Shown here: one piece after another, positions 2,465-56,093 of the stretch | How positions within the stretch are numbered: the first letter of the stretch is position 1 | Layout of the letters: every line of letters starts with the position of its first letter | NCBI RefSeq assembly: GCF_004335005.1 | Contig: NZ_RQRT01000008.1 | Location: forward strand, 1 to 64,000 | DNA length: 64,000 nt | Direction of reading: 5' to 3' | DNA from: Paracoccus nototheniae | GTDB taxonomy: Bacteria; Pseudomonadota; Alphaproteobacteria; Rhodobacterales; Rhodobacteraceae | Program-made: the position numbers and the translations under genes | Notes under the pieces: model-generated | Told to the model about the DNA's origin: nothing | The model's input: only the letters and a program-made list of their open reading frames with translations | Database searches by the model: none

Positions 2465-4852
2465 ATGAAGTTCACCCTCTCCTGGCTCAAGGAGCATCTC
2501 GACACCACCGCGACCCTGGGCGAGATCGCCGAGGCGCTGACCGATCTGGGGCTGGAGGTCGAGGATATCCAAGACCCCGCCGCACGGCTTGGCACCTTCA
2601 CGCTGGCGCGGATCGACCAGGCCGAACAGCACCCCGATGCCGACCGGCTGCGGGTCTGCCGGGTGATGACGGATGAGGGCGAAAAGCAGATCGTCTGCGG
2701 GGCGCCGAATGCCCGGGCGGGCATCACGGTCGTCCTGGCCAAGCCCGGCGATTATGTGCCGGGCATCGACACGACCCTTGGCGTGGGCCGCATCCGGGGC
2801 GTCGAAAGCCATGGCATGATGGCCAGCGAACGAGAGCTGGAGCTGTCCGAGGAACATGACGGCATCATCGAGCTGCCCTCGGGCGAGGTCGGCCAACGCT
2901 TTGTCGACTGGCTGGCGCAGAACGCGCCCGACAAGATCGACCCGATGATCCATATCAAGATCACCCCGAACCGCCCCGATGCGCTTGGCGTGCATGGCAT
3001 CGCACGCGATCTGGCCGCCCGGGGTCTGGGCGTGCTGAAACCGGTGACGGTCCAGCCGGTCGAGGGCGCGTTCCCCTGTCCCATCGGCGTGACCATCGCA
3101 CCCGAGGTGGCGGCCAAGGCGCCGTTCTTTGCGGGCCGGGTGGTTCGCGGCGTGACCAATGGTCCGTCGCCCGCCTGGCTGCAAAAGCGGCTGCGCGCGA
3201 TCGGGTTGCGCCCGATCAATGCACTGGCCGATATCACCAATCTCCTGACCTTTGACCTGAACCGCCCCTTGCACGTCTTCGATGCGGGCAAGGTCTCGGG
3301 CGATCTGACCCTGCGCGGGGCCGTGCCGGGCGATCAGCTGCTGGCGCTGGATGACAAGACCTATGCCTTGCCCGAAGGCGCGGTGGTGATCTGCGACGAT
3401 GCGGGCGTGGAAAGCATCGCGGGCATCATGGGGGGGGCGGCCTCGGGCGTGTCCGAGGGCACGACTGATGTGTTCATCGAGGCCGCCTATTTCGATCCGA
3501 TCAGCACCGCCGCCGCAGGCCGGGCGCTGAAGATCAACAGCGATGCGCGCTATCGGTTCGAACGCGGCATCGACCCGGCTTTTACGCGCGACGGGCTGGA
3601 GCTGGCGACCCGGATGGTCATGGATCTGTGCGGCGGTGAACCCTCGCAGGTCGTGACCGCAGGCGCGTTGCCCGACACAAGCCGCGCCTATCGTCTGGAC
3701 CCGCAGCGGACCAGCCGCCTTGTGGGCATGGACATCCCCGAGGCCGAACAGCGCGCAACGCTGGAGGCGCTTGGTTTCCGGTTGGAGGGCGACATGGCCC
3801 ATGTCCCCAGCTGGCGCCCCGATGTGCTGGGCGAGGCCGATCTGGTCGAGGAGATCGCCCGCATCGCCAGTCTGACCAAGCTGCAGGGCAAACCCCTGCC
3901 GCGTCTGCGCGCCGGTGTGCCCTTGCCGGTGCTGACGCCCCTGCAGGTGCGCGAACGGACCGCGCGGCGGATGGCAGCGGCCCTGGGCTATGATGAATGC
4001 GTGACCTATAGCTTCATCGACCAGCGTTCGGCGCAGCTGTTCGGCGGTGGCACGGATGCGCTGCGGGTGGACAACCCGATCAGCAGCGAGATGAGCCATC
4101 TGCGCCCCGATCTGCTGCCCGGCCTGTTGCAGGCGGCGGCGCGCAATCAGGCGCGCGGCTTTGCCGATCTGGCCCTGTTCGAGATGGGCCCCGTCTTTTC
4201 AGGCGGCGAGCCGGGCGAGCAGTCGCTGAGCATCAGCGGCCTGCTGATCGGCTTCAGTGCGCCCCGCGATCCCTTTACCAGCCGCCGCAAGGTCGATCTG
4301 TATGACGCCAAGGCCGATGCCGAGGCGATCCTGCAGGCGATCGGTGCCCCGGCCCGCGCCCAGATCACCCGCAAGCTGGAGGGCTGGTGGCATCCGGGCC
4401 GGGCAGGGACCATCGCGCTTGGCCCCAATGTGCTGGCGACATTCGGCGAGATCCATCCCCGCGTGCTGGCCCGGATGGATGTCAAGGGCCCTGCGGTCGG
4501 CTTTACCATCCGGCTGGCCGCCGTGCCCTTTCCCAAAGCGAAGACTCCGACGCGTCCGGCGCTGGATTTGGCGGGTCTGCAGGCGGTCGACCGCGATTTC
4601 GCCTTTGTCGTGGGGCCGCAGGTCGAGGCGCTGACGCTGGTCAATGCCGCGCTTGGCGCCGACAAGGCGCTGATCGCGCAGGTGTCGGTCTTTGATCAGT
4701 TCGTCGGGCTGGAGGGCGACCGGAAATCGGTGGGCATCACCGTGCGCCTGCAGCCGCGCGACAAGACCCTGACCGATACCGAGATCGAGGCGGTCAGCCG
4801 CAAGATCGTCGAGAAGGTCGAGAAGGCGACGGGCGGCACCCTGCGCGCCTGA
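2465..4852 (+). CDS. pheT: phenylalanine--tRNA ligase beta subunit
   Basis: A 795-residue beta subunit of the heterotetrameric phenylalanyl-tRNA synthetase, which charges tRNA-Phe. Start MKFTLSWLKEHLDTTATLGE is the conserved N-terminus. The order is: tRNA-binding OB fold (about 40-150), B3/B4 editing region (about 210-380), B5 domain (about 400-470), a catalytic-like core, and a C-terminal ferredoxin-fold anticodon-binding domain (about 700-795, with RDFAFVV and GLEGDRKSVGITVRL). Length matches the bacterial family. The alpha-subunit gene pheS, often the immediate upstream neighbour, is not next to it: the upstream gene is divergent and unrelated. Confidence 0.97.
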   Translation: MKFTLSWLKEHLDTTATLGEIAEALTDLGLEVEDIQDPAARLGTFTLARIDQAEQHPDADRLRVCRVMTDEGEKQIVCGAPNARAGITVVLAKPGDYVPGIDTTLGVGRIRGVESHGMMASERELELSEEHDGIIELPSGEVGQRFVDWLAQNAPDKIDPMIHIKITPNRPDALGVHGIARDLAARGLGVLKPVTVQPVEGAFPCPIGVTIAPEVAAKAPFFAGRVVRGVTNGPSPAWLQKRLRAIGLRPINALADITNLLTFDLNRPLHVFDAGKVSGDLTLRGAVPGDQLLALDDKTYALPEGAVVICDDAGVESIAGIMGGAASGVSEGTTDVFIEAAYFDPISTAAAGRALKINSDARYRFERGIDPAFTRDGLELATRMVMDLCGGEPSQVVTAGALPDTSRAYRLDPQRTSRLVGMDIPEAEQRATLEALGFRLEGDMAHVPSWRPDVLGEADLVEEIARIASLTKLQGKPLPRLRAGVPLPVLTPLQVRERTARRMAAALGYDECVTYSFIDQRSAQLFGGGTDALRVDNPISSEMSHLRPDLLPGLLQAAARNQARGFADLALFEMGPVFSGGEPGEQSLSISGLLIGFSAPRDPFTSRRKVDLYDAKADAEAILQAIGAPARAQITRKLEGWWHPGRAGTIALGPNVLATFGEIHPRVLARMDVKGPAVGFTIRLAAVPFPKAKTPTRPALDLAGLQAVDRDFAFVVGPQVEALTLVNAALGADKALIAQVSVFDQFVGLEGDRKSVGITVRLQPRDKTLTDTEIEAVSRKIVEKVEKATGGTLRA

Positions 4853-14839: not shown

Positions 14840-15421
14840 TTACCCGGCGGGCGTCGCGGCCGTATCGGTTCCGGCGGCGGTATCGGCAGCAGGCGCAGGG
14901 GCAGGCTGGGCGGTGACCGCGCAGCCGGGCTGTTGCTGGCCCCCGACCGTCAGGCGGGCGGTCAGCGGGAAGCGGTCCCCCGACATGCTGTCCCGGCACG
15001 GGGCGGCGCGCATGTTGACCACGAACGGGCGCCCGTTCAGCACGCCCACATATTCGACCCCCTGATTGAACACCAACCGGTTCACCGAGATCGACCGCCC
15101 CGATGGATTGTCGGGCGTGCGATAAAGCGCGGTGTTGCCGCTGATCTGGACCCGCCAGGACGGTTCGTTCCCGGCCGCGACAAAGGCGGTGCTGCGATAG
15201 GTCAGCGGCTCGGCCATCTGGACCGGGCGGGGGGCGGTGGCGGCGGTCTCGATCGGCTGTTCCAGCGGCGAGACGGCGGGCGGGCGCGGGCCTGCGGGCT
15301 GTTCGGGCTGGGCGGCGGTCTGATCCAGCCCGATGCCACGGCGCAGGTCGGTCATCGCCTCGCTGTCGCAGGCGGCCAGAGGCAGGGTCATCAGGGCAAG
15401 GACGGCAAGACGGGGAAACAT
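14840..15421 (-). CDS. lipoprotein with COG3650-like domain
   Basis: A 193-residue lipoprotein. The start MFPRLAVLALMTLPLAAC gives a short signal peptide ending in a lipobox Cys; AAAAGG lies upstream. A Pro/Ala/Gln linker precedes a domain with F-V-A-A-G-N-E-P-S-W-R-V-Q-I-S-G, then A-P-C-R-D-S-M-S-G-D-R-F-P-L-T-A-R-L-T-V-G-G and G-C-A. That resembles the small COG3650-type domain found in lipoproteins of Proteobacteria. The C-terminus is an Ala/Thr-rich tail. Function unknown. It is not clearly part of the yjbFH unit because of the 178-bp repeat-containing gap. Confidence 0.65.
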   Translation of the reverse strand: MFPRLAVLALMTLPLAACDSEAMTDLRRGIGLDQTAAQPEQPAGPRPPAVSPLEQPIETAATAPRPVQMAEPLTYRSTAFVAAGNEPSWRVQISGNTALYRTPDNPSGRSISVNRLVFNQGVEYVGVLNGRPFVVNMRAAPCRDSMSGDRFPLTARLTVGGQQQPGCAVTAQPAPAPAADTAAGTDTAATPAG

Positions 15422-15765
15422 GGGGCTTTGGCCTTTTGGGTCGGTCACGATCGTTGTGATCCAAGCGTTACCAATCGCCGCGCCATGGGGCAAGCGCTGC
15501 GCCCCCGCCCGGCAAGCAGCCGCCGTCCCCTGTGGTAACTGAGACGATCAGAGCGTCCGCGGCCAGCGGCACGGCGGCGGCGACGCAACGGGCTGCGCCA
15601 TCGGTCCGGACAAACAGGCCGGTCGTGGGCGATGAGGTCGATTGATAAATGATATCTTCTACCCCCATAGGGCGCATCCGGTGTGTTATTCGTTGAACTT
15701 CCTTTCGAAACCGGATCATGATCGGGCTATGTTCTTCCCGAAATCCGCGCCGATATGATCCCGAC
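15422..15765. other. 344-bp gap between divergent genes
   Basis: This region separates the minus-strand lipoprotein from the plus-strand HWE kinase and must hold both promoters. The part at 15640-15740 is locally AT-richer. I see no RNA gene, strong dyad or convincing small gene. Confidence 0.5.
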
Positions 15766-46041: not shown

Positions 46042-46060
46042 ATGGTGACCCCGGCAGGAC
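46042..46060. repeat. attL, 19-bp core of the element
   Basis: ATGGTGACCCCGGCAGGAC, identical to 56016-56034. Bases immediately outside differ on both sides, so 19 bp is the exact shared core. It derives from the 3' end of tRNA-Arg. The rest of the tRNA is absent here, as expected of a left junction. Confidence 0.92.
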
Positions 46061-46102
46061 GCCGCGAGATCACGTTTTTCCAAATCAAAACAATGGGACT
46101 GC

Positions 46103-46166
46103 ACGGGACACCGGCCACGATAACGGCGCGTTGCGCGCCAATGGCTTAGCGACCGGTTCGGGACAC
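46103..46166 (+). promoter_or_regulatory. candidate integrase arm sites at the left end
   Basis: CGGGACAC occurs at 46104-46111 and 46159-46166. The same octamer, in the same orientation, occurs twice beside attR (55937-55944, 55958-55965). Repeated short motifs flanking both att cores fit arm-type integrase binding sites. An IR GGCGCG...CGCGCC lies between the two at about 46123-46137. Confidence 0.55.
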
Positions 46167-46190
46167 GAAAATCCCGGCGATGCATTCAAG

Positions 46191-46475
46191 ATGCAGGCCG
46201 TTATGCAGCGTGAGGCACAGGCACACGCCCTAACCGTGGCGGTGCTGAACTGCGACCGTGACGACCGAATCCCCTTCCTTGAGGCAATCTTGGATGGCCT
46301 GCGGGCCGGGATGCCGATTGCCCTGTTTGGCACAATCATGGCCGAGGCCAGTTTCTGGGCCGACCGCGCCAGCCGCGCCGAGCGCAAAGCCTATTGCGCC
46401 GCCTGCTTCGCCTGCCTCGACCCCGAGGACCAGGACGCCTTTCGCATCTTCATCGAAGAACGGAGGGCGGCATGA
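46191..46475 (+). CDS. element-borne hypothetical protein
   Basis: A 94-residue soluble protein from the ATG at 46191 (M-Q-A-V-M-Q-R-E); start uncertain, the frame is open further upstream but within the att region. It contains D-D-R-I-P-F-L-E-A-I-L-D-G-L-R and a Cys-containing helix (Y-C-A-A-C-F-A-C). No recognised domain. Its stop overlaps the next gene by 4 bp (ATGA), so it belongs to the same transcript as the connector-like gene. Confidence 0.55.
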   Translation: MQAVMQREAQAHALTVAVLNCDRDDRIPFLEAILDGLRAGMPIALFGTIMAEASFWADRASRAERKAYCAACFACLDPEDQDAFRIFIEERRAA

Positions 46476-47008
46476 TCGTGCAGCGCCTTGATCGCACCCC
46501 GTGGTTACTTGAGGATCTGCAAGATCTGAGAGATCACGCGCGCGTCGATCCCAATGGTTACGACGATGTAGCCCTTCGCCGAATGTTCGTCGCAGCCGTC
46601 CTTGAAGCCGAGGAACATGGTCAGCTTGCTCTGTTCCCGCAGACAGTGCGGGTCACCTTGGACGCATGGCCGCGTGGGCACACTTTCCGCCTGCCCATCG
46701 GACCACTGCTGGACTGGGACAGCGTAAGCACCACGGCGGACGGCCAGCCTTTCGAAGACTTCAACACGATGACCGGCCAGTGGCCCGTGCTGCGCTTGAC
46801 CGGCGCACGTCCCTGCGGACAGGTCGTGATCGAGTATGCGTCAGGTTGCGAATACCAAAGCCATAAAATTCCCACTGATCTGGCCCATGCCCTCATGGAT
46901 CAGGCCCTTGCCTATTACGATGCGCGCGGGCCGGGCGACCCCAAGGCTCAGGCGCTATCGCCCCATTTTGCCCGGATCGTCGGACGGTATCGCGGGGTCC
47001 GCATATGA
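46472..47008 (+). CDS. head-tail connector protein, HK97 gp6 / phiE125 gp8-like
   Basis: A 178-residue protein; GGAGGGCGGC precedes the ATG. N-terminal helices (L-L-E-D-L-Q-D-L-R-D-H-A-R-V, then L-R-R-M-F-V-A-A-V-L-E-A) and a middle segment V-R-V-T-L-D-A-W-P-R-G with L-P-I-G-P-L fit the gp6-like connector pattern. The C-terminal V-V-I-E-Y-A-S-G-C, then I-P-T-D-L-A-H-A-L-M-D-Q-A-L-A-Y-Y-D-A-R and R-I-V-G-R-Y-R-G-V-R-I also match. In HK97-type phages it forms the ring under the portal to which tails attach. Its place, at the left end apart from portal and capsid, is unusual. Confidence 0.62.
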   Translation: MIVQRLDRTPWLLEDLQDLRDHARVDPNGYDDVALRRMFVAAVLEAEEHGQLALFPQTVRVTLDAWPRGHTFRLPIGPLLDWDSVSTTADGQPFEDFNTMTGQWPVLRLTGARPCGQVVIEYASGCEYQSHKIPTDLAHALMDQALAYYDARGPGDPKAQALSPHFARIVGRYRGVRI

Positions 47009-47244
47009 GGGCCGAGCATGCCTATACCGGCGTGGCCGAGGTGGACCATCTGCTGTTCAGTTGGGGTCGCGTCATCGCAGATGCAAAGGGCTGGTCGCGG
47101 GGCTTTGCCCTGTCCATCCAGCGCGACCGCAAGAAGGCAGGCTGGGTGCCCAGTGTGCGCCAGCTGTCCATCATGCGCCAGCTGGTGGCCGAGCTGCCCG
47201 CCGTCGAGGGCGACGACGATCCCGATCTGATCGAGCGAAACTGA
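47005..47244 (+). CDS. element-borne hypothetical protein, 79 residues
   Basis: Start ATG overlaps the connector-like gene stop by 4 bp. M-R-A-E-H-A-Y-T-G-V-A-E-V-D-H-L-L begins a small protein with a probable helical segment (R-Q-L-S-I-M-R-Q-L-V-A-E-L) and an acidic C-terminus. No recognised family. Last gene before the 333-bp non-coding gap. Confidence 0.6.
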   Translation: MRAEHAYTGVAEVDHLLFSWGRVIADAKGWSRGFALSIQRDRKKAGWVPSVRQLSIMRQLVAELPAVEGDDDPDLIERN

Positions 47245-47577
47245 GACTTCCCCGCGCGCCATGTGCGCGGGTTCTTCGGACAGGTGCGGGCTTTCACGGG
47301 TTAGCCGGCGCATCCGTCTTAAAGCGCTACCGGGAACGGGCCAGAGCGCAAGGGCAGCTATCCCGCGTCACGCGGTCTCTCCAAGCCCTAAGGCCACGCT
47401 GCCACCCAAAGGCGGCGAACATGGGAGAGCGGTCCGAGCCTTGGGAAAGGCAGGACTGACCTAAGCGGCGGGCTCGTCCGAATGGGCAGGTCAAGATCGC
47501 GGCGGTCAGGGCGGGAAGGCTGGGTTTTCAACCCCGGCCCTTAACCCGCTTCCTGACCGTCACAACGGGCTGAACCG
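47245..47577. other. 333-bp non-coding region with a long hairpin; cos/pac or ncRNA candidate
   Basis: No convincing gene. CCCGCGC / GCGCGGG (47251-47271) forms a terminator-like hairpin after the 79-residue gene. At 47503-47559 three stacked helices can form: CGGTCAGG with CCTGACCG (outer), GCGGG with CCCGC, and GGCTGGG with CCCGGCC (inner). It lies directly before the 84-residue gene and terL, in the place where DNA packaging sites often are. A cos or pac site, an RNA gene or a leader are all possible. Confidence 0.5.
47503..47559 (+). other. 57-nt three-helix stem-loop upstream of the packaging genes
   Basis: Outer 8-bp stem (47503-47510 / 47552-47559), middle 5-bp stem (47511-47515 / 47545-47549), inner 7-bp stem with one G-T pair (47518-47524 / 47533-47539). 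No T-run follows, so it is unlikely to be a terminator. Confidence 0.6.
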
Positions 47578-47832
47578 ATGGGCAAGCCAGAAGATAGGCG
47601 ACGGCTGAGAATGGAGACGGGCATGAGACTGAACAACAAAAGCGCGAGACTGGCAGTGAACGCTTGGCTGGTGAGCACTGGCCGCCCGGCTCTTCCTGTC
47701 AGCCTGCCTTATGAACAGTTTGCAACCGAGCTGCGGAAGGTGTGGGCGCGGACGATGGTTCAAGTGCCTTTCGTGGACCGTGCTGAAGCCGTCGCCTACA
47801 TCCGCGACGTGGCGCGGGCGGTGTCCCAATGA
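47578..47832 (+). CDS. element-borne small protein upstream of terL
   Basis: An 84-residue basic protein; start ATG at 47578, with 47611 and 47623 as alternatives. R-L-N-N-K-S-A-R-L-A-V-N-A-W-L-V-S-T-G is followed by a probable helical C-terminus (A-E-A-V-A-Y-I-R-D-V-A-R-A-V). The stop overlaps the terL ATG by 4 bp. Position and size would suit a terminase small subunit, but I see no helix-turn-helix, so that is only a positional guess. Confidence 0.55.
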   Translation: MGKPEDRRRLRMETGMRLNNKSARLAVNAWLVSTGRPALPVSLPYEQFATELRKVWARTMVQVPFVDRAEAVAYIRDVARAVSQ

Positions 47833-49457
47833 CCCCTGACCTCTTTGAAAATGGTCCCAATGCCCCGACTTCGGTTTTGGCTGGGGACCGACGACAGACT
47901 GTTCCTTTCTCCCTTTTGGAAAAAATCCGGGGAAAATCGCCGGGCATCCGCGCAATTCAGTTTTTGGGGCTTTTGCACGTGCCCGAGGGGAAAAAAGCCG
48001 GAAAACCCCTAAAATTGGCAAATTTTCAGCGGAATTTCGTGAAAGGGGCACTTGCCAAGAATGTCACGGTCGGCGTCCTGTCGATCGGGCGCGGCAATGC
48101 CAAGACGGCGCTGTCGGCGGGCCTTTCACTGGCCGAGCTGGTCGGCGCGCTTGAGGAACGCCCTCAGCCCAATCGGGAAATCATCTTCGCAGCCCGCAAC
48201 CGCGATCAGGCCCGCATCGCGTTCAATTTCCTGCTGGGCTACATCCGGGGCCTGCCCGAGGCTGACCAGTCGCTGTTCACGATCCGCCGCGGCTCCAAGC
48301 TGGAAGTCGAATTTGGCGGCAACGGCGGCGGGTTGGCGCGCTGCATCGCCGCTGATGGCAAGTCGGTTCTCGGCGGTTCCCCGACGCTGGCGATCATGGA
48401 CGAACGCGCGGCATGGGAACGGGCCAAGGGCGACGACCTTGAGAACGCCATCCTGTCGGGTCTTGGCAAGCGCGACGGTCGGGCGCTGATCATCTCGACA
48501 TCGGCCCCCGACGACACCAACACGTTTTCGCGCTGGCTGGATCAGCCGCCCCCCGGCAGTTACGTTCAGGAACACCGGCCTTCCTTCGGCCTGCCCGCCG
48601 ATGATCTGCCGTCGCTGCTGGCGGCGAATCCCGGCGCGTCCGAAGGCATCGGCTCGTCTGCCGACTGGCTGGTTTCCCAGGCACGAAGCGCGATTGCGCG
48701 CGGCGGATCGGCCCTGTCCAGCTTCCGCAACCTGAACCGCAATGAGCGTGTGTCGATCGAGAACCGCAGCGTTCTGGTCACGGTGGACGAATGGCTGTCT
48801 GCCGAGGTGGCCCCCGATGATCTGCCCGCCCGTGAAGGCCCCTGCATTCTGGGCGTGGACCTGGGTGGATCGCGCAGCATGTCGGCGGCGGCATTCTATT
48901 GGCCCGACACCGGACGGCTTGAAGCCTTGGGCACGTTCCCGGCCTTCCCCTCACTGGCAGATCGAGGCGCGTCCGATGGCGTGTCGGGGCGCTACAGCGA
49001 AATGCACGATCGCGGCGAACTGTCCGTCATGGGCGAAAACACGGTGCCGCCCGGCCCGTGGCTGGCCGAAATCGTGCGCCAGCTCGACGGCATCCAGCCC
49101 GTGTGCATCGTGGGCGACCGCTTCCGGGTGGCCGAGTTCAACGAGGCTCTGAACAAGGCCGGGCTTGGCCGGGTGCCCTTCCTGTGGCGCGGCTTCGGCT
49201 GGAAGGACGGCAGCGAGGACATCGAGCGGTTCCGCCGTGCCCTGTTCGATGGAGAACTGAAGGTCGCGCCGTCGCTGCTGCTGCGCTTCGCCTTTTCGGA
49301 TGCGGTCACCATCATCGACCCGGCAGGCAATGCCAAGCTGGGCAAGGGCCGGTCCCTTGGCCGCATCGACGCGGCGGCGGCGACCGTGCTGGCCGTGGCG
49401 CAGGGTGCCCGCATGAAGGCGACCCCGCAGCGGAAGGCGCGTGTGCAATGGATGTGA
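47829..49457 (+). CDS. terL: phage terminase large subunit
   Basis: A 542-residue packaging ATPase-nuclease of the Terminase_1 (HK97-like) type. Walker A-like S-I-G-R-G-N-A-K-T (85-93), Walker B P-T-L-A-I-M-D-E (185-192, D191/E192). The C-terminal RNase H-like nuclease has metal-binding Asp in G-V-D-L-G-G-S (D344), I-V-G-D-R-F (D430) and G-R-I-D-A-A-A-A (D514). All parts appear intact. The first 60 codons are more AT-rich. Its end overlaps the HNH gene by 10 bp. Confidence 0.93.
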   Translation: MTPDLFENGPNAPTSVLAGDRRQTVPFSLLEKIRGKSPGIRAIQFLGLLHVPEGKKAGKPLKLANFQRNFVKGALAKNVTVGVLSIGRGNAKTALSAGLSLAELVGALEERPQPNREIIFAARNRDQARIAFNFLLGYIRGLPEADQSLFTIRRGSKLEVEFGGNGGGLARCIAADGKSVLGGSPTLAIMDERAAWERAKGDDLENAILSGLGKRDGRALIISTSAPDDTNTFSRWLDQPPPGSYVQEHRPSFGLPADDLPSLLAANPGASEGIGSSADWLVSQARSAIARGGSALSSFRNLNRNERVSIENRSVLVTVDEWLSAEVAPDDLPAREGPCILGVDLGGSRSMSAAAFYWPDTGRLEALGTFPAFPSLADRGASDGVSGRYSEMHDRGELSVMGENTVPPGPWLAEIVRQLDGIQPVCIVGDRFRVAEFNEALNKAGLGRVPFLWRGFGWKDGSEDIERFRRALFDGELKVAPSLLLRFAFSDAVTIIDPAGNAKLGKGRSLGRIDAAAATVLAVAQGARMKATPQRKARVQWM

Positions 49458-49780
49458 GGGCAGCACATACCCGGCACTCGAAGCGCGTTACCGCAACCCG
49501 CCGTTGGCAGGTCTTGCGCCATGTCATCCTTGAGCGGGACGGCTGGAAATGCCGCTGCTGTGGCGCGCGTGGCAGGCTGGAAATCGACCATATCAGGCCG
49601 GTGCGCCACGCCCCCGAGCGGGCCTTTGACCCTGCCAATTTACAGGCCCTTTGCAGCCCCTGTCACACCAAGAAAACCCGGATCGAATGCGGCCAGCCCG
49701 CCCCGATCCAGTCGTCCGCGCGTGATGCGTGGGCAAAAGCCGTTGCCGATCTGGCGACGACCCCCAACCCGGCAATGTAA
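49448..49780 (+). CDS. HNH endonuclease of the packaging module
   Basis: A 110-residue HNH nuclease. C35-x2-C38 and C69-x2-C72 bind structural zinc; the catalytic motif is E-I-D-H-I-R (H48), N64 and H73. HNH proteins beside TerL in HK97-like phages are needed with the terminase for cutting cos DNA, which suggests cos-type packaging. It overlaps the terL end and is 9 bp from the capsid gene. Confidence 0.9.
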   Translation: MDVRAAHTRHSKRVTATRRWQVLRHVILERDGWKCRCCGARGRLEIDHIRPVRHAPERAFDPANLQALCSPCHTKKTRIECGQPAPIQSSARDAWAKAVADLATTPNPAM

Positions 49781-49789
49781 GGAAAACAC

Positions 49790-51025
49790 ATGCTGAACTC
49801 TGTGAAAATCGCCCGTCGCCAGTCGGAAATCCGGCAGGCTCTGGCCGAGCTGGTCGGCAAGCCCACCCCGACCGAGGACGAAACCCGCCAGATGGAAACG
49901 CTGGACGGCGAGTATCGGACCAATGAGACCCGCTATCGCGCATCCCTCGTCTCCGAGGATCAGGAACGTCGCGAGGCCGGGGCCGATCTGGAAACCCGGT
50001 CGGATCGCGAATGGCAGGATCTGATGGGGCGGTTCGAGCTGCGTCAGGTCGCGCTGTCGCTGGACGAGGGCAAGGCGCTGTCGGGCGCGACTGCCGAAAT
50101 CGTGGCCGAGCTGCGCAACGCGGGCGGCTATCAGGGCATCCCGGTTCCTCTGGCGGCGCTGGAAACCCGTGCAGGCGAAACCATCGCGGCAGACGTGCCC
50201 AATCCCAAGGTGATCCGCCCCGTCATCGACCGGCTGTTTCCCGGCAGCGTGGCCGAGCGCCTTGGTATCCAGCGCATCAATATCACCTCGGGCGAACTAG
50301 CCTTCCCGGTGGCGACGGCGGGTGCCGTGTTCGGCTGGCAGACGACCGAGCTGGGCAATGTCGGCGCGGCGTCGGAATACCAGACCACCGAACGCAGCCT
50401 GAACCCCGATCACACGGGCGGCGCGCAGATGATCCTGTCGCGCAAGGCGCTGAAACAGGCGGGCGACGGGCTGGAAGCGGCCATTCGGCGCGATCTGAAT
50501 GCGGCGATCGGTGCAGAGCTGGACCGTGTTGCCATCATGGGAAGCGGCGCGGCGGGCCAGCCTCTGGGCATGATCCCCGGCGCAGAGGAATATGGCATTG
50601 CCATCACCCCTGTCGGCGCGGCTGCCACCTGGGCGGCGTTCCGGGCGCAGATCGTGGCCTTCATGGAGGCCAATGCGATCACCTCGGCCAGCCAAGTCAA
50701 TCTGGGCTTCGACCCCGCCATCTGGGCCGAGCTGGACGAAGCGCTGATCACCGGCACTGCTGTGTCGGAATGGGACCGACTGACCAAGCATGTCGGCACC
50801 CCCGCGATCAGCAACGTGATCCCGGACGCGACCGCGATCATGACGGCCACCGTGCAGGGCATCGCGCCGGGCTATCTGGGCATCTATGGCGGGGTGGACC
50901 TGATCCGCGACCCCTACACCAAGGCGCAGTCGGGCCAGTTGGTCCTGACCGGTCTGGTCACTGCGGACTTCACCGTCCCGCGCGGCCTGCAAACCCGCAT
51001 CCTGACCGGCATCGGGGGCGAATGA
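49790..51025 (+). CDS. major capsid protein, HK97 gp5 family
   Basis: A 411-residue capsid protein. Residues about 1-100 form a highly charged coiled-coil delta domain that acts as a built-in scaffold and is cut off by the protease. The mature HK97 fold follows (V-I-R-P-V-I-D-R-L-F-P-G, F-P-V-A-T-A-G-A, L-G-I-Y-G-G-V-D-L-I-R-D-P-Y-T). RBS AAGGAAA precedes the ATG. It is followed by the protease with overlapping stop/start codons, the reverse of the canonical protease-then-capsid order. Confidence 0.94.
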   Translation: MLNSVKIARRQSEIRQALAELVGKPTPTEDETRQMETLDGEYRTNETRYRASLVSEDQERREAGADLETRSDREWQDLMGRFELRQVALSLDEGKALSGATAEIVAELRNAGGYQGIPVPLAALETRAGETIAADVPNPKVIRPVIDRLFPGSVAERLGIQRINITSGELAFPVATAGAVFGWQTTELGNVGAASEYQTTERSLNPDHTGGAQMILSRKALKQAGDGLEAAIRRDLNAAIGAELDRVAIMGSGAAGQPLGMIPGAEEYGIAITPVGAAATWAAFRAQIVAFMEANAITSASQVNLGFDPAIWAELDEALITGTAVSEWDRLTKHVGTPAISNVIPDATAIMTATVQGIAPGYLGIYGGVDLIRDPYTKAQSGQLVLTGLVTADFTVPRGLQTRILTGIGGE

Positions 51026-51576
51026 TGCTGTGGGGCGGTCACAATGGCAGCCTTGAGCTGCGGTCGGAGGGCGGGGCAACCCGCCTGACGGCCCGCTTTC
51101 CCTATGGCCGGGAAACGGAAATCGCGGCGGGGCGTCTTGAGGTGATCGCCCCGCGCGCCTTCCGCGACCGGATCGAGCGCGGCGAGGAAATCCACCTGTT
51201 GGCCGGGCATGATTTCAACCGCCCGCTTGCGGCCCGATCGACGGGCAACCTGACCTTGACCGACAGTGACGATGCCTTGGTGATCGAGGCCGAGATTGAC
51301 AGCGGGACCAGCTGGGCCCGCGATTTTCTGGCCGCGCATGGTTCCGGCCTGATCCGGGGCGTGTCGCCGGGTTTCCGCGTCCCGCGCGGTGGGGAACGGA
51401 TCGAGCGGCGCGGCGCGGGCATCCTGCGCACGATCGCCTCGGCCGAGCTGTTCGAAATCTCGGCCGTTACCCGCCCGGCCTATCCGGAAGCGCAGATCGA
51501 GGCGCGCAACTGGCAACCCGTGGGCGAGGTGGCCGAACGCCTGGTCACGCATCACTTCAAGCGTTGGAGGCTCTGA
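51022..51576 (+). CDS. HK97-family prohead protease
   Basis: A 184-residue peptidase of family U35/S78; ATG at 51022 overlaps the capsid stop (51025 is a second ATG). Catalytic His in L-A-G-H-D-F-N-R-P-L-A (about 63) and Ser in R-G-V-S-P-G-F-R-V (about 115) are in the family pattern. It matures the capsid by removing the delta domain. Followed by the portal gene after one base. Confidence 0.93.
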   Translation: MMLWGGHNGSLELRSEGGATRLTARFPYGRETEIAAGRLEVIAPRAFRDRIERGEEIHLLAGHDFNRPLAARSTGNLTLTDSDDALVIEAEIDSGTSWARDFLAAHGSGLIRGVSPGFRVPRGGERIERRGAGILRTIASAELFEISAVTRPAYPEAQIEARNWQPVGEVAERLVTHHFKRWRL

Positions 51577-51577
51577 C

Positions 51578-52651
51578 ATGGGGCTGATGGACATTTTCCG
51601 GCGCAGGGCACCGGCAATCGAAACCCGCGCCGTCCAGCCGGGCTATACTGCCTCTTTGATGGCCACGCGCGAAGCGTGGATCTCCGGGGCGGCGGGTCTG
51701 GGCGAACTGACGGCAGCGGTGCAATCCTCCGTGAGCCTCTGGGAGGCAGGTTTGAGCCTCGCAGACGTTCGGGGCACCAACATGCTGGATCGGCGCAGCA
51801 TGGCCTTGACCGCCCGCGCTCTGGCGCTGCGTGGCGAATGCTTGTTCTTGATCAGGGATGATCAGATCATTCCTTGCACCGATTGGGACATCTTGACCCG
51901 CTACGGCCAGCCCCGCGCCTATCGCGTCGGGCTGCCCGAAATTGGGGGAGGGCGGAATGAGACCGTGCTAGCGGGGGAGGTGCTGCATTTTCGGATCGGC
52001 TGCGATGCCACGACGCCCTGGGCGGGATCTGCGCCCCTGTCGCGCGCCCGTCTCTCGGCTGAATTGCTTGAAGAAATCACCACCGCTATGCGCGACGTGT
52101 TCCGGGATGCGCCGATCGGCAGTCAGATCGTGCCCACACCCGATGGCAGCGCCGAACAGATGGAAGATCTTCGAGGCGGTTTCCGAGGGCGGCGCGGCGC
52201 CACACTGGTGGTCGAGGGCGTGGCACAGGCAGTCGCGGCAGGGATGCACCCTCAGCTTGGCAAGTCGCCTGACCAGCTTTCCCCGCAACTCGACAAGACG
52301 CTAGCCGACAAGCTGCTGATCGAGGCCAAGGGCGATATCTACGGCGTGTTCGGCATCTTGCCCGGTCTGGTCAATCAATCGACCACCGGCCCGATGGTCC
52401 GCGAGGCGCAGCGGCATCTGGCTCAGCTGGTCCTGCAGCCCATCGCCAACCTGCTGGCCGAGGAGGCCACAGACAAGCTGGGCGATGCGGTGACGATCGA
52501 CGTGGTGCGCCCGATGCAGGCGTTCGACCACGGCGGCAAGGCCCGCGCCCTGGGCGCGATGGTCAAGGCGCTGGCCGAGGCCAAGGCGGCAGGTATTGCG
52601 GACGTAGCGTTTCAGGATGCCCTGAACTTCATCGACTGGCAGGAGGATTGA
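51578..52651 (+). CDS. phage portal protein, HK97 gp3 family
   Basis: A 357-residue portal; start MGLMDIFRRR with TTGGAGG upstream. N-terminal G-L-M-D-I-F-R-R-R is typical. Stem/wing regions include V-L-H-F-R-I-G, S-P-D-Q-L and the conserved I-Y-G-V-F-G-I-L-P-G-L-V; the C-terminal helical part has L-Q-P-I-A-N-L-L-A-E-E. Slightly short for the family (typically 380-430) but without a visible break. The portal forms the DNA entry vertex. It is last of the TerL-HNH-capsid-protease-portal run. Confidence 0.93.
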   Translation: MGLMDIFRRRAPAIETRAVQPGYTASLMATREAWISGAAGLGELTAAVQSSVSLWEAGLSLADVRGTNMLDRRSMALTARALALRGECLFLIRDDQIIPCTDWDILTRYGQPRAYRVGLPEIGGGRNETVLAGEVLHFRIGCDATTPWAGSAPLSRARLSAELLEEITTAMRDVFRDAPIGSQIVPTPDGSAEQMEDLRGGFRGRRGATLVVEGVAQAVAAGMHPQLGKSPDQLSPQLDKTLADKLLIEAKGDIYGVFGILPGLVNQSTTGPMVREAQRHLAQLVLQPIANLLAEEATDKLGDAVTIDVVRPMQAFDHGGKARALGAMVKALAEAKAAGIADVAFQDALNFIDWQED

Positions 52652-52654
52652 GCC

Positions 52655-53161
52655 GTGCTCGTGATGACTCCCGCCGCAAAGAGGATGCTGCGTAACGAGC
52701 GCCGCCGCGAGCGCGATGGCCTGCGTGGGCGATTGGGCAAGGACCGATCCGAAGCCATCGTGGCCGGTCTGCGGCGCATCATGCGGCATGAGTTTGTCGA
52801 GGGTCGCACGGCAACATTGTTCGGACTGGAAGGACCGATGCGTCACGCGATGCGGGAAACGCTGTGCCTGCAAGGCTGGCAATGGGCGGATGCCGACGAC
52901 ACGGCCCGCCAGCTGGTCGCGGCTGCGCTGGCCAGCCTTTGGGCGATCCGCCCGACATGGAATGAGGGACAGCCGGAATGGACGATCGAGCAAGGGACGT
53001 TGATCGCGCGGACGCGCTGCGCCCGGTGCCAAGCACCGCTGCCGGAGGGGCATTACAAGTTCTGCTCACGCCTGTGCAGCACGGCCTTCAATTCGTGGCT
53101 TTCGAACATGCGCCGGGCAGAGGAGAGCAACGTGATGCAGATAGCTGCGCGCATGGGTTGA
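52655..53161 (+). CDS. element-borne zinc-knuckle protein, first gene
   Basis: A 168-residue protein with GTG start, three bases after the portal stop. The basic N-terminus (A-K-R-M-L-R-N-E-R-R-R-E-R) and a helical middle part precede one C-x2-C-x11-C-x3-C knuckle at residues 122-141. Its C-terminus runs into the next gene, which continues with four more knuckles in the -1 frame. Family unknown; the pair may bind DNA or RNA. Confidence 0.65.
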   Translation: MLVMTPAAKRMLRNERRRERDGLRGRLGKDRSEAIVAGLRRIMRHEFVEGRTATLFGLEGPMRHAMRETLCLQGWQWADADDTARQLVAAALASLWAIRPTWNEGQPEWTIEQGTLIARTRCARCQAPLPEGHYKFCSRLCSTAFNSWLSNMRRAEESNVMQIAARMG

Positions 53162-53580
53162 CCTGCGCCTGGTGCGGCGCTGAACTGCCCGCAGGCTGCA
53201 CGATCCGCCGCGAATACTGCGACAAGGCATGTGCTGCCCGCTTCCGCGCCGCTGACAAGCGCGCCCGGACGGTCGCAGACCGCAAATGCCTGTGGTGTAG
53301 CGGACCGATCGCCCCCGAACTGCGCCCAGGAACGATATACTGCAGCCGACGATGCAGCTGGAGATGTCAAAGCGATCAGGAAAAGAAACGCAGATCCTGC
53401 GACAATTGTGGCAAGGTTTTCCGTGGGCACGGGCGGTTCTGCCGTCATGAATGCTATGGGAAGAGCAAGCGGACGCGGCATCCAAAGGAATGCCCGGTCT
53501 GCCGTCGGACGTTCAGACCTCACCGTGTCGAGCAGGTTTGCTGTTCGCAGAGGTGCAGGCGCGCGCGTGAAAAGCTCTAA
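53158..53580 (+). CDS. element-borne protein of four tandem zinc knuckles
   Basis: A 140-residue, Cys/Arg-rich protein. Proposed start TTG at 53158, overlapping the previous stop (TTGA); the same frame is also open upstream to an ATG at 52978 within the previous gene. Four knuckles C-x2-C-x(n)-C-x3-C with n = 14, 14, 10 and 13 fill the protein. They resemble the single knuckle of the previous gene, so the two could also be one product joined by -1 frameshifting. I recognise no named family. Confidence 0.6.
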
Positions 53581-53924
53581 TTTTCTTTTTCATCGCCGGG
53601 CAGAGATCCATCACCATGCAGGGACTCGTCACTGTTGGGCAAGTATCGCCCATCTGGGTCAGGCGAAAGCCCACTCAAAACCCACTTGAATGATGGGCTG
53701 GCAACCATCTCGGCAATGTCCTTAACCGCGCGCCTCGCTTCATAGATCGACCGGGCGTCAAAGACTTTTATTGATCTAGGATCAAAAGAACCTTCAAGCC
53801 TGGCCACAATCTCAGCGTTCATGCTCCGGTTGTTTAGCTCTGCGGCATACTTGATCTGGTCGCGCATCCCGTCAGGGAGCCGCACTACAAACTGATCAAG
53901 TTGCTTGCTGGGAGGTTTTGTCAT
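53577..53924 (-). CDS. Arc-like ribbon-helix-helix repressor
   Basis: A 115-residue DNA-binding protein. Residues about 9-48 match Arc: [13 protein letters not shown], then [12 protein letters not shown]. The C-terminal about 65 residues have no recognised domain. It ends by overlapping the zinc-knuckle gene by 4 bp, tail to tail, and is divergent from a second Arc-like gene. Likely the element's repressor, acting at the 13-bp repeats in the intervening 103 bp. Confidence 0.85.
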
Positions 53925-53939
53925 GACGCTTATCCATTG

Positions 53940-54015
53940 TGTGATACGCAGATGCGATTATTCCACCTTGACTGCAATCCTACGCTTTGCATATCATAGG
54001 AATTGCATATCATAG
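53940..54015. promoter_or_regulatory. divergent control region: promoter and operator repeats
   Basis: TTGCATATCATAG is repeated exactly at 53987-53999 and 54003-54015, 16 bp apart. An inverted, diverged half (TGTGATACGC, 53940-53949; 8 of 10 match the inverse of GCATATCATA) lies on the other side. TTGACT (53968-53973) and TATCAT (53992-53997), 18 bp apart, make a good sigma-70 promoter for the rightward genes; the -10 lies inside the first repeat. A ribbon-helix-helix repressor bound there would block it. Confidence 0.75.
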
Positions 54016-54027
54016 AGGGCAATCATC

Positions 54028-54249
54028 ATGATCCAAAGTGCAGCGGGCAGTGAGGAGGTTGTTGCGACCTCTCTTCGGATGCCCAAAGACGTTCGCGACG
54101 CGCTGAAAATCCAAGCGATCAGAGCCGGGCGGTCATACAACACCCATGCGGTGATGATCCTGTCCGCCGCACTGACCAGCCATGAAAAAGACCGCCAGGG
54201 CGGCTACCCTGACGGTCTTGAGCAATCCCAACTCTCAGAAAGGATCTAG
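54028..54249 (+). CDS. second Arc-like ribbon-helix-helix protein
   Basis: A 73-residue DNA-binding protein. V-A-T-S-L-R-M-P-K-D-V-R-D-A-L-K and G-R-S-Y-N-T-H-A-V-M-I-L-S-A form the ribbon-helix-helix. It is the first gene of the rightward unit leading to the integrase and is divergent from the other Arc-like gene, an arrangement like a phage cI/cro switch. Its 3' end carries a strong hairpin. Confidence 0.82.
   Translation: MIQSAAGSEEVVATSLRMPKDVRDALKIQAIRAGRSYNTHAVMILSAALTSHEKDRQGGYPDGLEQSQLSERI
54185..54219 (-). terminator. antisense-oriented terminator within the second Arc-like gene
   Basis: AAGACCG-C-CAGGG, a 6-nt loop, then CCCTG-A-CGGTCTT: a 12-bp stem with one mismatch. On the minus strand it is followed by TTTTT (54185-54189). 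It would stop leftward transcription entering from the integrase side, while staying inside a coding region on the plus strand. Confidence 0.6.
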
Positions 54250-54251
54250 CC

Positions 54252-54557
54252 ATGAATATGGATCAGACCAAGGACGAAAGCAAGGACCGCGCGCAGCTGT
54301 CGGAGGCCGATCAAGAGGTCGAACAGTTCTGCGATCGGGTCGAGGCTGCAATGAACAGCCAGCTTGAGCTGTGCATCGCGGGCATGTTCATTCTGTTGAA
54401 CTCTGACAAGCTGCGCCACCTTGAAAGCGCGCCCGAGGTGCTGGCTCTAAGAGGCATCATCGGCGCGATCAAGGAGCGTGCGAATGCAATCTTGATCGAG
54501 GTTGAAACCGACAGCTACGACGCGGCGATCAGGGATGCTTTCGGGGGTGCGGCATGA
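54252..54557 (+). CDS. element-borne hypothetical protein, 101 residues
   Basis: Acidic, mainly helical protein: M-N-M-D-Q-T-K-D-E-S-K, E-V-E-Q-F-C-D-R-V-E, then L-C-I-A-G-M-F-I-L-L-N-S-D-K. GAAAGGATC lies before the start. The stop overlaps the next gene by 4 bp. No known family. Confidence 0.65.
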   Translation: MNMDQTKDESKDRAQLSEADQEVEQFCDRVEAAMNSQLELCIAGMFILLNSDKLRHLESAPEVLALRGIIGAIKERANAILIEVETDSYDAAIRDAFGGAA

Positions 54558-54742
54558 CTTCTGCCCCGCTGAACGAAGCTCAATTTTTGTCGATCCTCGA
54601 CCGGCTGTCCCCGGCCCAGATCCGGAAATTGGCAGTCCTCTGCAGCGGTGAAGCCGCAGGTGGTTTGCCCGACCTGGCGGCCCCGCTGCTGTCGCTTGCG
54701 GATGGCAAGGACTGGGAACAAGAACAGAGCGAGGCGGCCTGA
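54554..54742 (+). CDS. element-borne hypothetical protein, 62 residues
   Basis: Start ATGA overlaps the preceding stop. N-terminal L-N-E-A-Q-F-L-S-I-L-D-R-L-S-P-A-Q-I-R-K-L-A is a probable helical pair; the end is acidic. Not recognised. It is in a tightly packed unit with the integrase. Confidence 0.55.
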   Translation: MTSAPLNEAQFLSILDRLSPAQIRKLAVLCSGEAAGGLPDLAAPLLSLADGKDWEQEQSEAA

Positions 54743-54744
54743 TC

Positions 54745-54936
54745 ATGTCCCGGCCTTCCGCACCGTCCATGCCGACGGAACGCCAGATCCAAGACGCGTT
54801 CAAGGCCGTGACGCTTGTTAATCCCGGCGCGCGCATCGCGCGCGTCGGCCCCGAAGGCATCACCTTCGAACATCCCGACGAACGCCGCCAGTCAGGCGGA
54901 TGGGACCGCAAGCCATTTTCGGCGGTGCAGGCATGA
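54745..54936 (+). CDS. small protein immediately before the integrase
   Basis: A 63-residue protein: P-T-E-R-Q-I-Q-D-A-F-K-A-V-T, then R-I-A-R-V-G-P-E-G-I-T-F-E. Short proteins of this kind (a helix, then a beta hairpin with an E-G-I/G-T-I turn) very often precede tyrosine integrases in alphaproteobacterial elements. Role unknown; an excisionase-like function is possible but not shown. The stop overlaps the integrase start. Confidence 0.6.
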   Translation: MSRPSAPSMPTERQIQDAFKAVTLVNPGARIARVGPEGITFEHPDERRQSGGWDRKPFSAVQA

Positions 54937-55934
54937 GGTCGGTTTCATATCTGCGGTCCAAGCTGCGCCGGGGCCGGTGGTTTCACACCTACCGGCGCGG
55001 CGACAAGGAAATCTCCCTTGGGGTGCATGGTCTGCACCCGACCGACCCGCGCGTGTTCGCGGCCTATTGTGCCGAACATGCCCGTTGGGAACAAAGCCCT
55101 GCGGGAACGGTCACACCCAAAGGCGGCACCTTTGCGTGGGCGCTCGATATCTACAAGGCAAGCCCGGCATGGGCGAAGCTGGCCCGGACAACGCAAATGA
55201 ACCGCGACGCGATTTATCGTCGGTATGTCAAGGCTCAGGGCAACCGCCCGCTGTCCAGTATTGCGCCTGAGGATATCGAGGCGGCGCTGTATGCCAAAGG
55301 CGGCAATGCGGCGGTGAATGAGCTGAAGGCACTGAAGCCGATTTTCTTCCACGCCTATAAGCTGCGGATCATTTCAGCCGATCCGACGCGCGGCCTGAAA
55401 ATGGTTCGACCCGAAACAGAGGGCTTCGCGACGGCAGGTGTCGATGAAATCGCCGCCTATCAGAAAAAGTGGCCGATTGGGTCGGTCGAGCGCCTCGTGT
55501 TCGATCTGGCGCTGTATACCGGGGCCGCGCGTGTCGATCTGGCCAAACTAGGCCGCCGCAATATGGTTGACGGCGTTCTGCAATATCGGCGGCAAAAGAC
55601 CAACACGCTGGCCCAGGTGCCGCTGACGCCCGAGCTGCGCGCGGTGGTTGGCAGAACAGCACACATTGCCCCTGCTTTCATCCTGAACGGGAAGGGCAAG
55701 CCCTACACGGCGGAAAGCCTTGGAAACCTGTTCCGGGATGCCGCAACAAAGGCCGGAATGGCTGCGCGCCTTCACGGCCTGCGCAAAGCGTTTTGCGTTT
55801 ACTGGGCAGAAAAGGGGGCGACGACCCACCAGATCGCAGCCATGGCCGGTCATATGACGCTTGGCGAAGTTGAACGATACACCCGCGCAGCCGATCGGCT
55901 GAAGATGGTCAAACTGTTGGTCGAGGGATCATGA
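54933..55934 (+). CDS. int: tyrosine-type site-specific integrase
   Basis: A 333-residue recombinase. The catalytic set is complete: Arg200 (T-G-A-A-R-V-D-L), Lys222 (Q-K-T-N), His281-x-x-Arg284 (H-G-L-R-K), His307 (G-H-M) and Tyr316 (R-Y-T-R-A). An N-terminal arm/SAM-like core-binding region precedes it. It points at attR and the tRNA-Arg gene 100 bp away, the usual place, so it probably integrates and excises this element. The start overlaps the upstream gene. Confidence 0.95.
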   Translation: MRSVSYLRSKLRRGRWFHTYRRGDKEISLGVHGLHPTDPRVFAAYCAEHARWEQSPAGTVTPKGGTFAWALDIYKASPAWAKLARTTQMNRDAIYRRYVKAQGNRPLSSIAPEDIEAALYAKGGNAAVNELKALKPIFFHAYKLRIISADPTRGLKMVRPETEGFATAGVDEIAAYQKKWPIGSVERLVFDLALYTGAARVDLAKLGRRNMVDGVLQYRRQKTNTLAQVPLTPELRAVVGRTAHIAPAFILNGKGKPYTAESLGNLFRDAATKAGMAARLHGLRKAFCVYWAEKGATTHQIAAMAGHMTLGEVERYTRAADRLKMVKLLVEGS

Positions 55935-55965
55935 AACGGGACACGCAAGCCCAGAAACGGGACAC
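55933..55965 (+). promoter_or_regulatory. candidate integrase arm sites at the right end
   Basis: GAAACGGGACAC is exactly repeated at 55933-55944 and 55954-55965, 21 bp apart (two helical turns), between int and attR. Its 3' octamer CGGGACAC also occurs twice near attL. Confidence 0.6.
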
Positions 55966-56015
55966 ACTTTGCCAGAATGATGAAATTGCTCAACATTCCG
56001 GCGCGATTCTGAGAA

Positions 56016-56034
56016 ATGGTGACCCCGGCAGGAC
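56016..56034. repeat. attR, 19-bp core within the tRNA-Arg 3' end
   Basis: ATGGTGACCCCGGCAGGAC, identical to 46042-46060. It covers the CCA, discriminator, 3' acceptor strand and part of the T arm of the tRNA gene, so the element brings a replacement 3' end and leaves the tRNA functional. Confidence 0.93.
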
Positions 56035-56093
56035 TCGAACCTGCAACCGATTGATTAGAAGTCAATTGCTCTATCCAGTTGAGCTACGGGGCC
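56017..56093 (-). tRNA. tRNA-Arg(TCT)
   Basis: A 77-nt gene including an encoded CCA. Acceptor GGCCCCG pairs with CGGGGTC. The anticodon stem ATTGA/TCAAT holds the loop CTTCTAA, anticodon TCT (Arg). T arm: GGTTCGAGTCC. It is intact and is the integration site of the adjacent element. Confidence 0.96.

Follow-up and report, generated by a model that had tools for sequence, protein, structure and literature searches.

A tail-less mobile element with its own HK97-type capsid genes in Paracoccus nototheniae, probably a capsid-forming satellite with relatives in other Alphaproteobacteria

What kind of element carries the head genes of an HK97-type phage together with an integrase, and no recognisable tail? 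The question is raised by positions 46042–56034 of the stretch analysed here (the window), which is the first 64,000 nucleotides of contig NZ_RQRT01000008.1 of Paracoccus nototheniae. This 9,974-bp unit is probably an intact capsid-forming satellite, with its own small HK97-type capsid and with tails taken from a helper phage. A first-pass annotation of the sequence had proposed such a satellite, and the part of that proposal that stands is a complete, tail-less, mobile and capsid-encoding element, whereas induction by a helper and the use of helper tails are still proposals.

The unit is bounded by two exact 19-bp direct repeats, 46042–46060 and 56016–56034, and the right copy lies within the 3' end of a tRNA-Arg(tct) gene (56017–56093, minus strand), as expected for the attachment (att) sites that had been reported. 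The coding share is 9,291 of 9,993 bp, and the sole large non-coding gap is the 333 bp at 47245–47577. The features are as follows, with the best supporting matches.

46042–46060, no strand: attL, 19-bp direct repeat; exact repeat of 56016–56034
46191–46475, plus strand: A94, conserved in the family; relatives with 34–69% identity in many loci, profile matches unconvincing
46472–47008, plus strand: head-tail connector (adaptor); phrog_442 9e-14, TIGR02215 53.8 bits with a cut-off of 39
47005–47244, plus strand: C79, small helical protein just upstream of the RNA; 20 relatives
47251–47589, plus strand: structured RNA of about 340 nt, outside Rfam; conservation, covariation, fold z -3.24, covariance model
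47578–47832, plus strand: 84-aa frame overlapping the start of TerL, uncertain candidate for the terminase small subunit (TerS); relative in locus L114
47829–49457, plus strand: terminase large subunit (TerL); phrog_9 5e-55, Pfam TerL_ATPase and TerL_nuclease
49448–49780, plus strand: HNH endonuclease; Pfam HNH 5e-11, phrog_144 9e-21
49790–51025, plus strand: HK97-fold major capsid protein with helical N-terminal domain; PF05065, phrog_617, TIGR01554, model and fold search
51025–51576, plus strand: S78 prohead serine protease; PF04586 3e-21, TIGR01543 above cut-off
51578–52651, plus strand: portal; PF04860 3e-9 (just below cut-off), phrog_12 4e-7
52655–53161, plus strand: Z168, treble-clef-like zinc protein; cysteine motif, 9 loci including that of this element
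53158–53580, plus strand: Z140, multi-zinc-finger protein; weak PF09889, part of phrog_1271
53577–53924, minus strand: Arc-type repressor; PF03869 3e-16
54028–54249, plus strand: second, divergent Arc-type regulator; PF03869 9e-5
54252–54557, plus strand: D101; profile matches unconvincing
54554–54742, plus strand: E62; profile matches unconvincing
54745–54936, plus strand: F63, conserved small protein 5' of the integrase; relatives in loci L120 and L037
54933–55934, plus strand: tyrosine integrase; PF00589 8e-12, phrog_1 4e-25
56016–56034, no strand: attR, 19-bp repeat in the 3' end of tRNA-Arg(tct); exact repeat and tRNA call

From the left, A94 and the connector are followed by C79, the 84-aa frame, TerL, HNH, capsid, protease and portal genes and the two zinc proteins, and further right come the divergent Arc regulators, three small proteins without assigned function and the integrase. 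The head genes stand in the order capsid-protease-portal, and not in the usual order portal-protease-capsid. Profile searches upheld the assignment of integrase, TerL, HNH, capsid, protease and portal, the connector-like protein is now placed by a PHROG match and by an NCBIfam model above its curated cut-off, and both regulators carry the Arc domain PF03869 that had been suspected. When all genes of the element were searched against PHROG, Pfam and NCBIfam profiles, no tail, lysis or replication gene was recognised, in agreement with what had been read from the frames, and no known defence protein either. The longest protein without assigned function has 168 residues, and a complete tail module can therefore not fit in the genes that lack an assignment. 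Four of these small proteins, A94, Z168, Z140 and D101, could in principle serve a self-sufficient virion with a minimal unrecognised tail or a tail-less way of entry, but none is spike- or fibre-like, a connector that would accept a tail has been retained and a lysis gene is absent, all of which make such a virion very unlikely.

The element is one of a large family. TerL has relatives at 100 loci in sequenced genomes, of which 80 were fetched (from Rhodobacterales, Sphingomonadales and Hyphomicrobiales), and in 184 pattern-matched stretches of IMG/VR. Capsid relatives in IMG/VR number at least 600, and the best 80 of these contigs are all 21 kb or shorter, and mostly around 10 kb or less. 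A capsid match at E <1e-100 is present in 29 of 125 genomes of the genus, some of which have two, and at E <1e-60 in 2 of 385 genomes of an even class-wide sample, one of them that of the window; the family is therefore concentrated near this group. All complete copies keep the order TerL-HNH-capsid-protease-portal. The relatives that have both att copies (n=46) measure 9,455–11,392 bp with a median of 10,612 bp, and use the tRNA genes for Arg, Cys, Phe, Glu, Thr, Asn, Ala, Lys, His, Ser, Gln, Met and others. In a collection of 50,697 phage records the top hits of TerL and of the capsid reach about 30% identity, close capsid relatives are seen only in such small elements, and no long phage version of the module was found among the relatives in genome loci, IMG/VR or the phage collection.

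The head genes are under purifying selection. Measured against L114, a close relative from a metagenome, the ratio of non-synonymous to synonymous substitution rates (dN/dS) is 0.05–0.28 for all nine shared genes; the 84-aa frame shows 86% identity to L114 with a dN/dS of 0.10, although no counterpart was found in the other relatives, and F63 shows 72% identity to L120 and L037 with a dN/dS of 0.15–0.20. The view that the element is not decaying is thus supported, both by the low dN/dS and by relatives in several bacterial orders that match it in gene order, and closely in size, at many tRNA genes. An attempt to refute it by way of full-length prophages, of which this copy would be a unique deletion derivative, failed in that no such relatives turned up, and a deletion-derivative prophage is ruled out by the conserved size, order and att sites. 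The phage-like head genes and the lack of a recognised replication or TerS gene would suit a remnant of an ordinary HK97-type siphophage that has lost its tail and lysis genes, but the recurrence, across many tRNA genes, genera and orders, of a unit of about 10.6 kb that has no tail and keeps intact att sites, the purifying selection and the lack of any long relative make this origin extremely improbable.

The relatives vary around the constant core. Two head-completion layouts occur, one with the connector before TerL as in the window and one with another connector between protease and portal, and in some relatives a head-completion protein (Pfam Phage_HCP) is present in addition. Some relatives have, before TerL, a 120-aa gene that was considered as a TerS candidate, but its product rather resembles a head-completion protein. 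Other genes of the relatives that had no assignment match replication initiators, RepA-like AAA proteins, Prim-Pol, primase, head closure and neck proteins and regulators. The regulators of other relatives are AlpA-like, MerR-like or Xre-type; control by Arc instead of AlpA, as first suggested, thus holds for this member and not for the family.

As a satellite, the element would work in the following way. Insertion by the integrase would be into the 3' end of tRNA-Arg without damage to the tRNA, and the Arc-type repressors would hold the element silent until an active helper phage leads to its excision. Since no replication gene is recognisable, the DNA is proposed to be copied by helper or host machinery. 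TerL and HNH would then package one unit of about 10 kb into the element's own capsid, the encoded connector would accept a helper tail, and lysis would also be supplied by another phage. A resident helper is possible, because contig C199 of the same genome (locus L193, 12583–18123) carries a siphophage TerL gene that adjoins one for a tape measure protein, TerS and a neck gene lie farther on, and further connector loci are found elsewhere in the genome. The gene order of C199, a helper-prophage candidate, is unusual or may reflect an assembly join.

In the predicted structure of the capsid protein (mean pLDDT, predicted local distance difference test, of 75.6) a long helical domain at the N terminus precedes the HK97 fold. 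Among solved structures the best fold match of the protein is the capsid of roseophage R4C, and capsids of gene transfer agents (GTAs) are within the top ten. In the sequence search R4C was the only capsid matched. The HK97 capsid is T=7 with 40 kb of DNA, and scaling from it predicts about 11 kb for a T=3-sized shell, which a 10.6-kb genome would fill. The hosts belong to Alphaproteobacterial orders that bear GTAs, and the satellite might accordingly use GTA tails of its host instead of phage tails. This is in line with the GTA capsids among the best structural matches and with the other connector loci in the host genome, but the structured RNA of the element, described below, is common to true phages such as Shpa, and a GTA as the helper is considered quite unlikely. 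The HK97 fold is also common to encapsulins and GTAs, and a domesticated capsid locus that serves the host as these do could look similar in its capsid gene; the integrase, the intact att pair, the patchy presence and the circular relatives speak against domestication, which is highly improbable.

Several points weigh against the satellite interpretation. No terminase small subunit was recognised by the profile searches of the element, and the connector has no recognisable match in the 50,697 phage records. Among the relatives no contiguous match to the empty site was found; in genome G075 the two flanking genes are about 40 bp apart and the element is absent. In its favour, no tail tube, tape measure or fibre protein is found among the PHROG families listed for the genes of the relatives, a listing that covers 25 of 85 families.

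The closest known strategy is that of the capsid-forming phage-inducible chromosomal islands (cf-PICIs) EcCIEDL933 and EcCI2 (Alqurainy et al. 2023), as they are described in PMC10690885, PMC10803314 and PMC11389934. Like these, the element is site-specifically integrated with its own integrase and encodes its own capsid, protease, portal and connector while tail and lysis genes are absent; of the packaging set TerL and HNH are present, with only the 84-aa candidate for TerS. A PICI-type early region (AlpA-type regulator, primase or Rep) is absent from the window element but present in some relatives. The family differs from the cf-PICIs in its smaller size (about 10.6 kb, whereas cf-PICIs average 14 kb; PMC10803314), in the capsid-protease-portal order, in the added RNA and in that some relatives are episomal, and its Alphaproteobacterial hosts are absent from the cf-PICI host list of PMC10803314. 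The capsid is also of another lineage. That of EcCI2 ranks only 44th in the fold search with 12% identity, and no sequence match was found between the element capsid and this solved structure. The element capsid has thus been acquired independently of the solved cf-PICI lineage, or has diverged past recognition. Membership of the described enterobacterial cf-PICI lineage is therefore unsupported, as R4C and GTA capsids fit better. The family works like a cf-PICI yet is a separate lineage.

The Streptomyces satellites MulchRoom and MiniFlayer (PMC10690885) likewise have their own capsid and packaging genes and no recognised primase, but differ, in a comparison by description only, in having virulent Streptomyces phages as helpers and direct terminal repeats. 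The cf-PICI strategy is thus already known; the lineage, size, gene order, Arc-controlled design free of replication genes, episomes and RNA may be new, in that they were not found described in the literature searched, from which most subscription journals and bioRxiv were missing. For the Alphaproteobacterial form no description was found there either, and neither "satellite" nor "island" occurs in the Paracoccus virome paper (PMC6536676). An own small capsid combined with a stolen tail is indicated to be a widespread and apparently independent lifestyle in Alphaproteobacteria.

Two conserved sequence versions of the gap before TerL exist: version A, that of the window, was compared in 14 sequences and version B in 20. 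Compared with its shuffles, the copy in the window folds better (z -3.24). Version B has 69 predicted pairs, 97% paired over the 20 sequences, and 29 pairs are changed on both sides against 16.8 in shuffles and 7–13 in slid structures. A covariance model built from version B only finds version A (window E 2.4e-4 in 1.6 Mb; L033 6e-13), and the two are therefore homologous. None of the 4,227 Rfam covariance models matches 47251–47589. C79, encoded just before the RNA, is modelled as helical (mean pLDDT 85.5), and its fold search gave no match.

Among loci L033–L112 the RNA is present in 17, of which none has the RepA module, while 28 of the remaining loci have RepA, an exclusion that is inflated by shared ancestry. 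The RNA is also found in L104, L276 and L286, which have divergent TerL, in L215, which has the other connector layout, and in further elements that carry C79 or an integrase. Outside the satellites it is carried by Paracoccus phage Shpa (NC_041868) and by Rhodobacteraceae prophages, at the following positions.

L274 (phage Shpa), 32953–33302: RNA
L267, 9265–9677: RNA in Rhodobacteraceae phage or prophage locus
L269, 4846–5069 and 7728–8024: RNA in Rhodobacteraceae phage or prophage locus
L271, 9530–9816: RNA in Rhodobacteraceae phage or prophage locus

Shpa is a full 38-kb siphophage with tail genes and is not the source of the satellite capsid. Its RNA lies directly after the primase gene, 33 kb into the 38 kb, and in prophages of genomes G007, G110 and G772 the RNA is near methylase and P27-type TerS genes. 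The small hypothetical frames gp47 and gp48 of Shpa overlap the RNA and may be spurious.

The mutual exclusion of RNA and RepA first favoured a replication origin as the role of the RNA. This role is weakened by phage Shpa, where the RNA follows the primase in a genome with replication genes of its own, and by the other prophages in which it is near terminase genes. A cos site as the entire role is weakened too: the Shpa copy is separated by about 5 kb from the end of the genome, on the other side of which come HNH, TerS and TerL, and the covariation of base pairs points to an RNA. The placement between early genes and packaging or head genes suggests that it acts at a late stage, in late gene expression or packaging. 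It is conceivable, though somewhat doubtful, that this new class of phage and satellite RNA couples the capsid operon or the packaging of the satellite to a helper that has this RNA as well. By acting on the RNA, a factor from the helper would then switch on the late genes of the satellite, which would need no activator or replication protein of its own. There is a precedent in the abundant non-coding RNAs of phage ICP1 and its satellite PLE (PMC7567579). Like GOLLD and ROOL (PMC12286853), the new RNA is a large structured RNA of phages and prophages whose function is not known, but it is shorter (about 290–390 nt) and located near terminase genes or after a primase and not in tRNA islands. 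Common to satellites and ordinary phages, it offers a testable lead on the tie between satellite and helper.

A small integrase element at 3526–11594 of L285 carries C79 and the RNA together with a Shpa-like head module (HNH, TerL, then protease and portal), and is possibly another family of capsid-forming satellites.

Five relatives are circular by terminal overlap, with sizes of 10.1–10.4 kb (L084 1–10436, L044 1–10234, L053 1–10206, L114 1–10166 and L115 1–10114), and no integrase was recognised in any of them. A RepL-like protein is encoded by L115 and also by L114, where its Pfam match falls slightly short of the cut-off. Some relatives are thus apparently circular, plasmid-like satellite episomes without integrase, and integrated and episomal forms alike keep a unit size near 10.6 kb. 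According to its contig name, one circular relative, from Gemmobacter serpentinus, has a coverage of 941, as a multicopy episome might show. L053 has a protein with motifs that by eye resemble those of family-A polymerases.

Four viral contigs (L212, L244, L247 and L256) have two integrase-like genes around one satellite module, and represent either elements in tandem or contigs extending into a neighbour. In L036 a match to the Rfam family sRNA-Xcc1 (59 bits, gathering threshold 53) is located at 15412–15498, inside the satellite and 3' of the portal gene.

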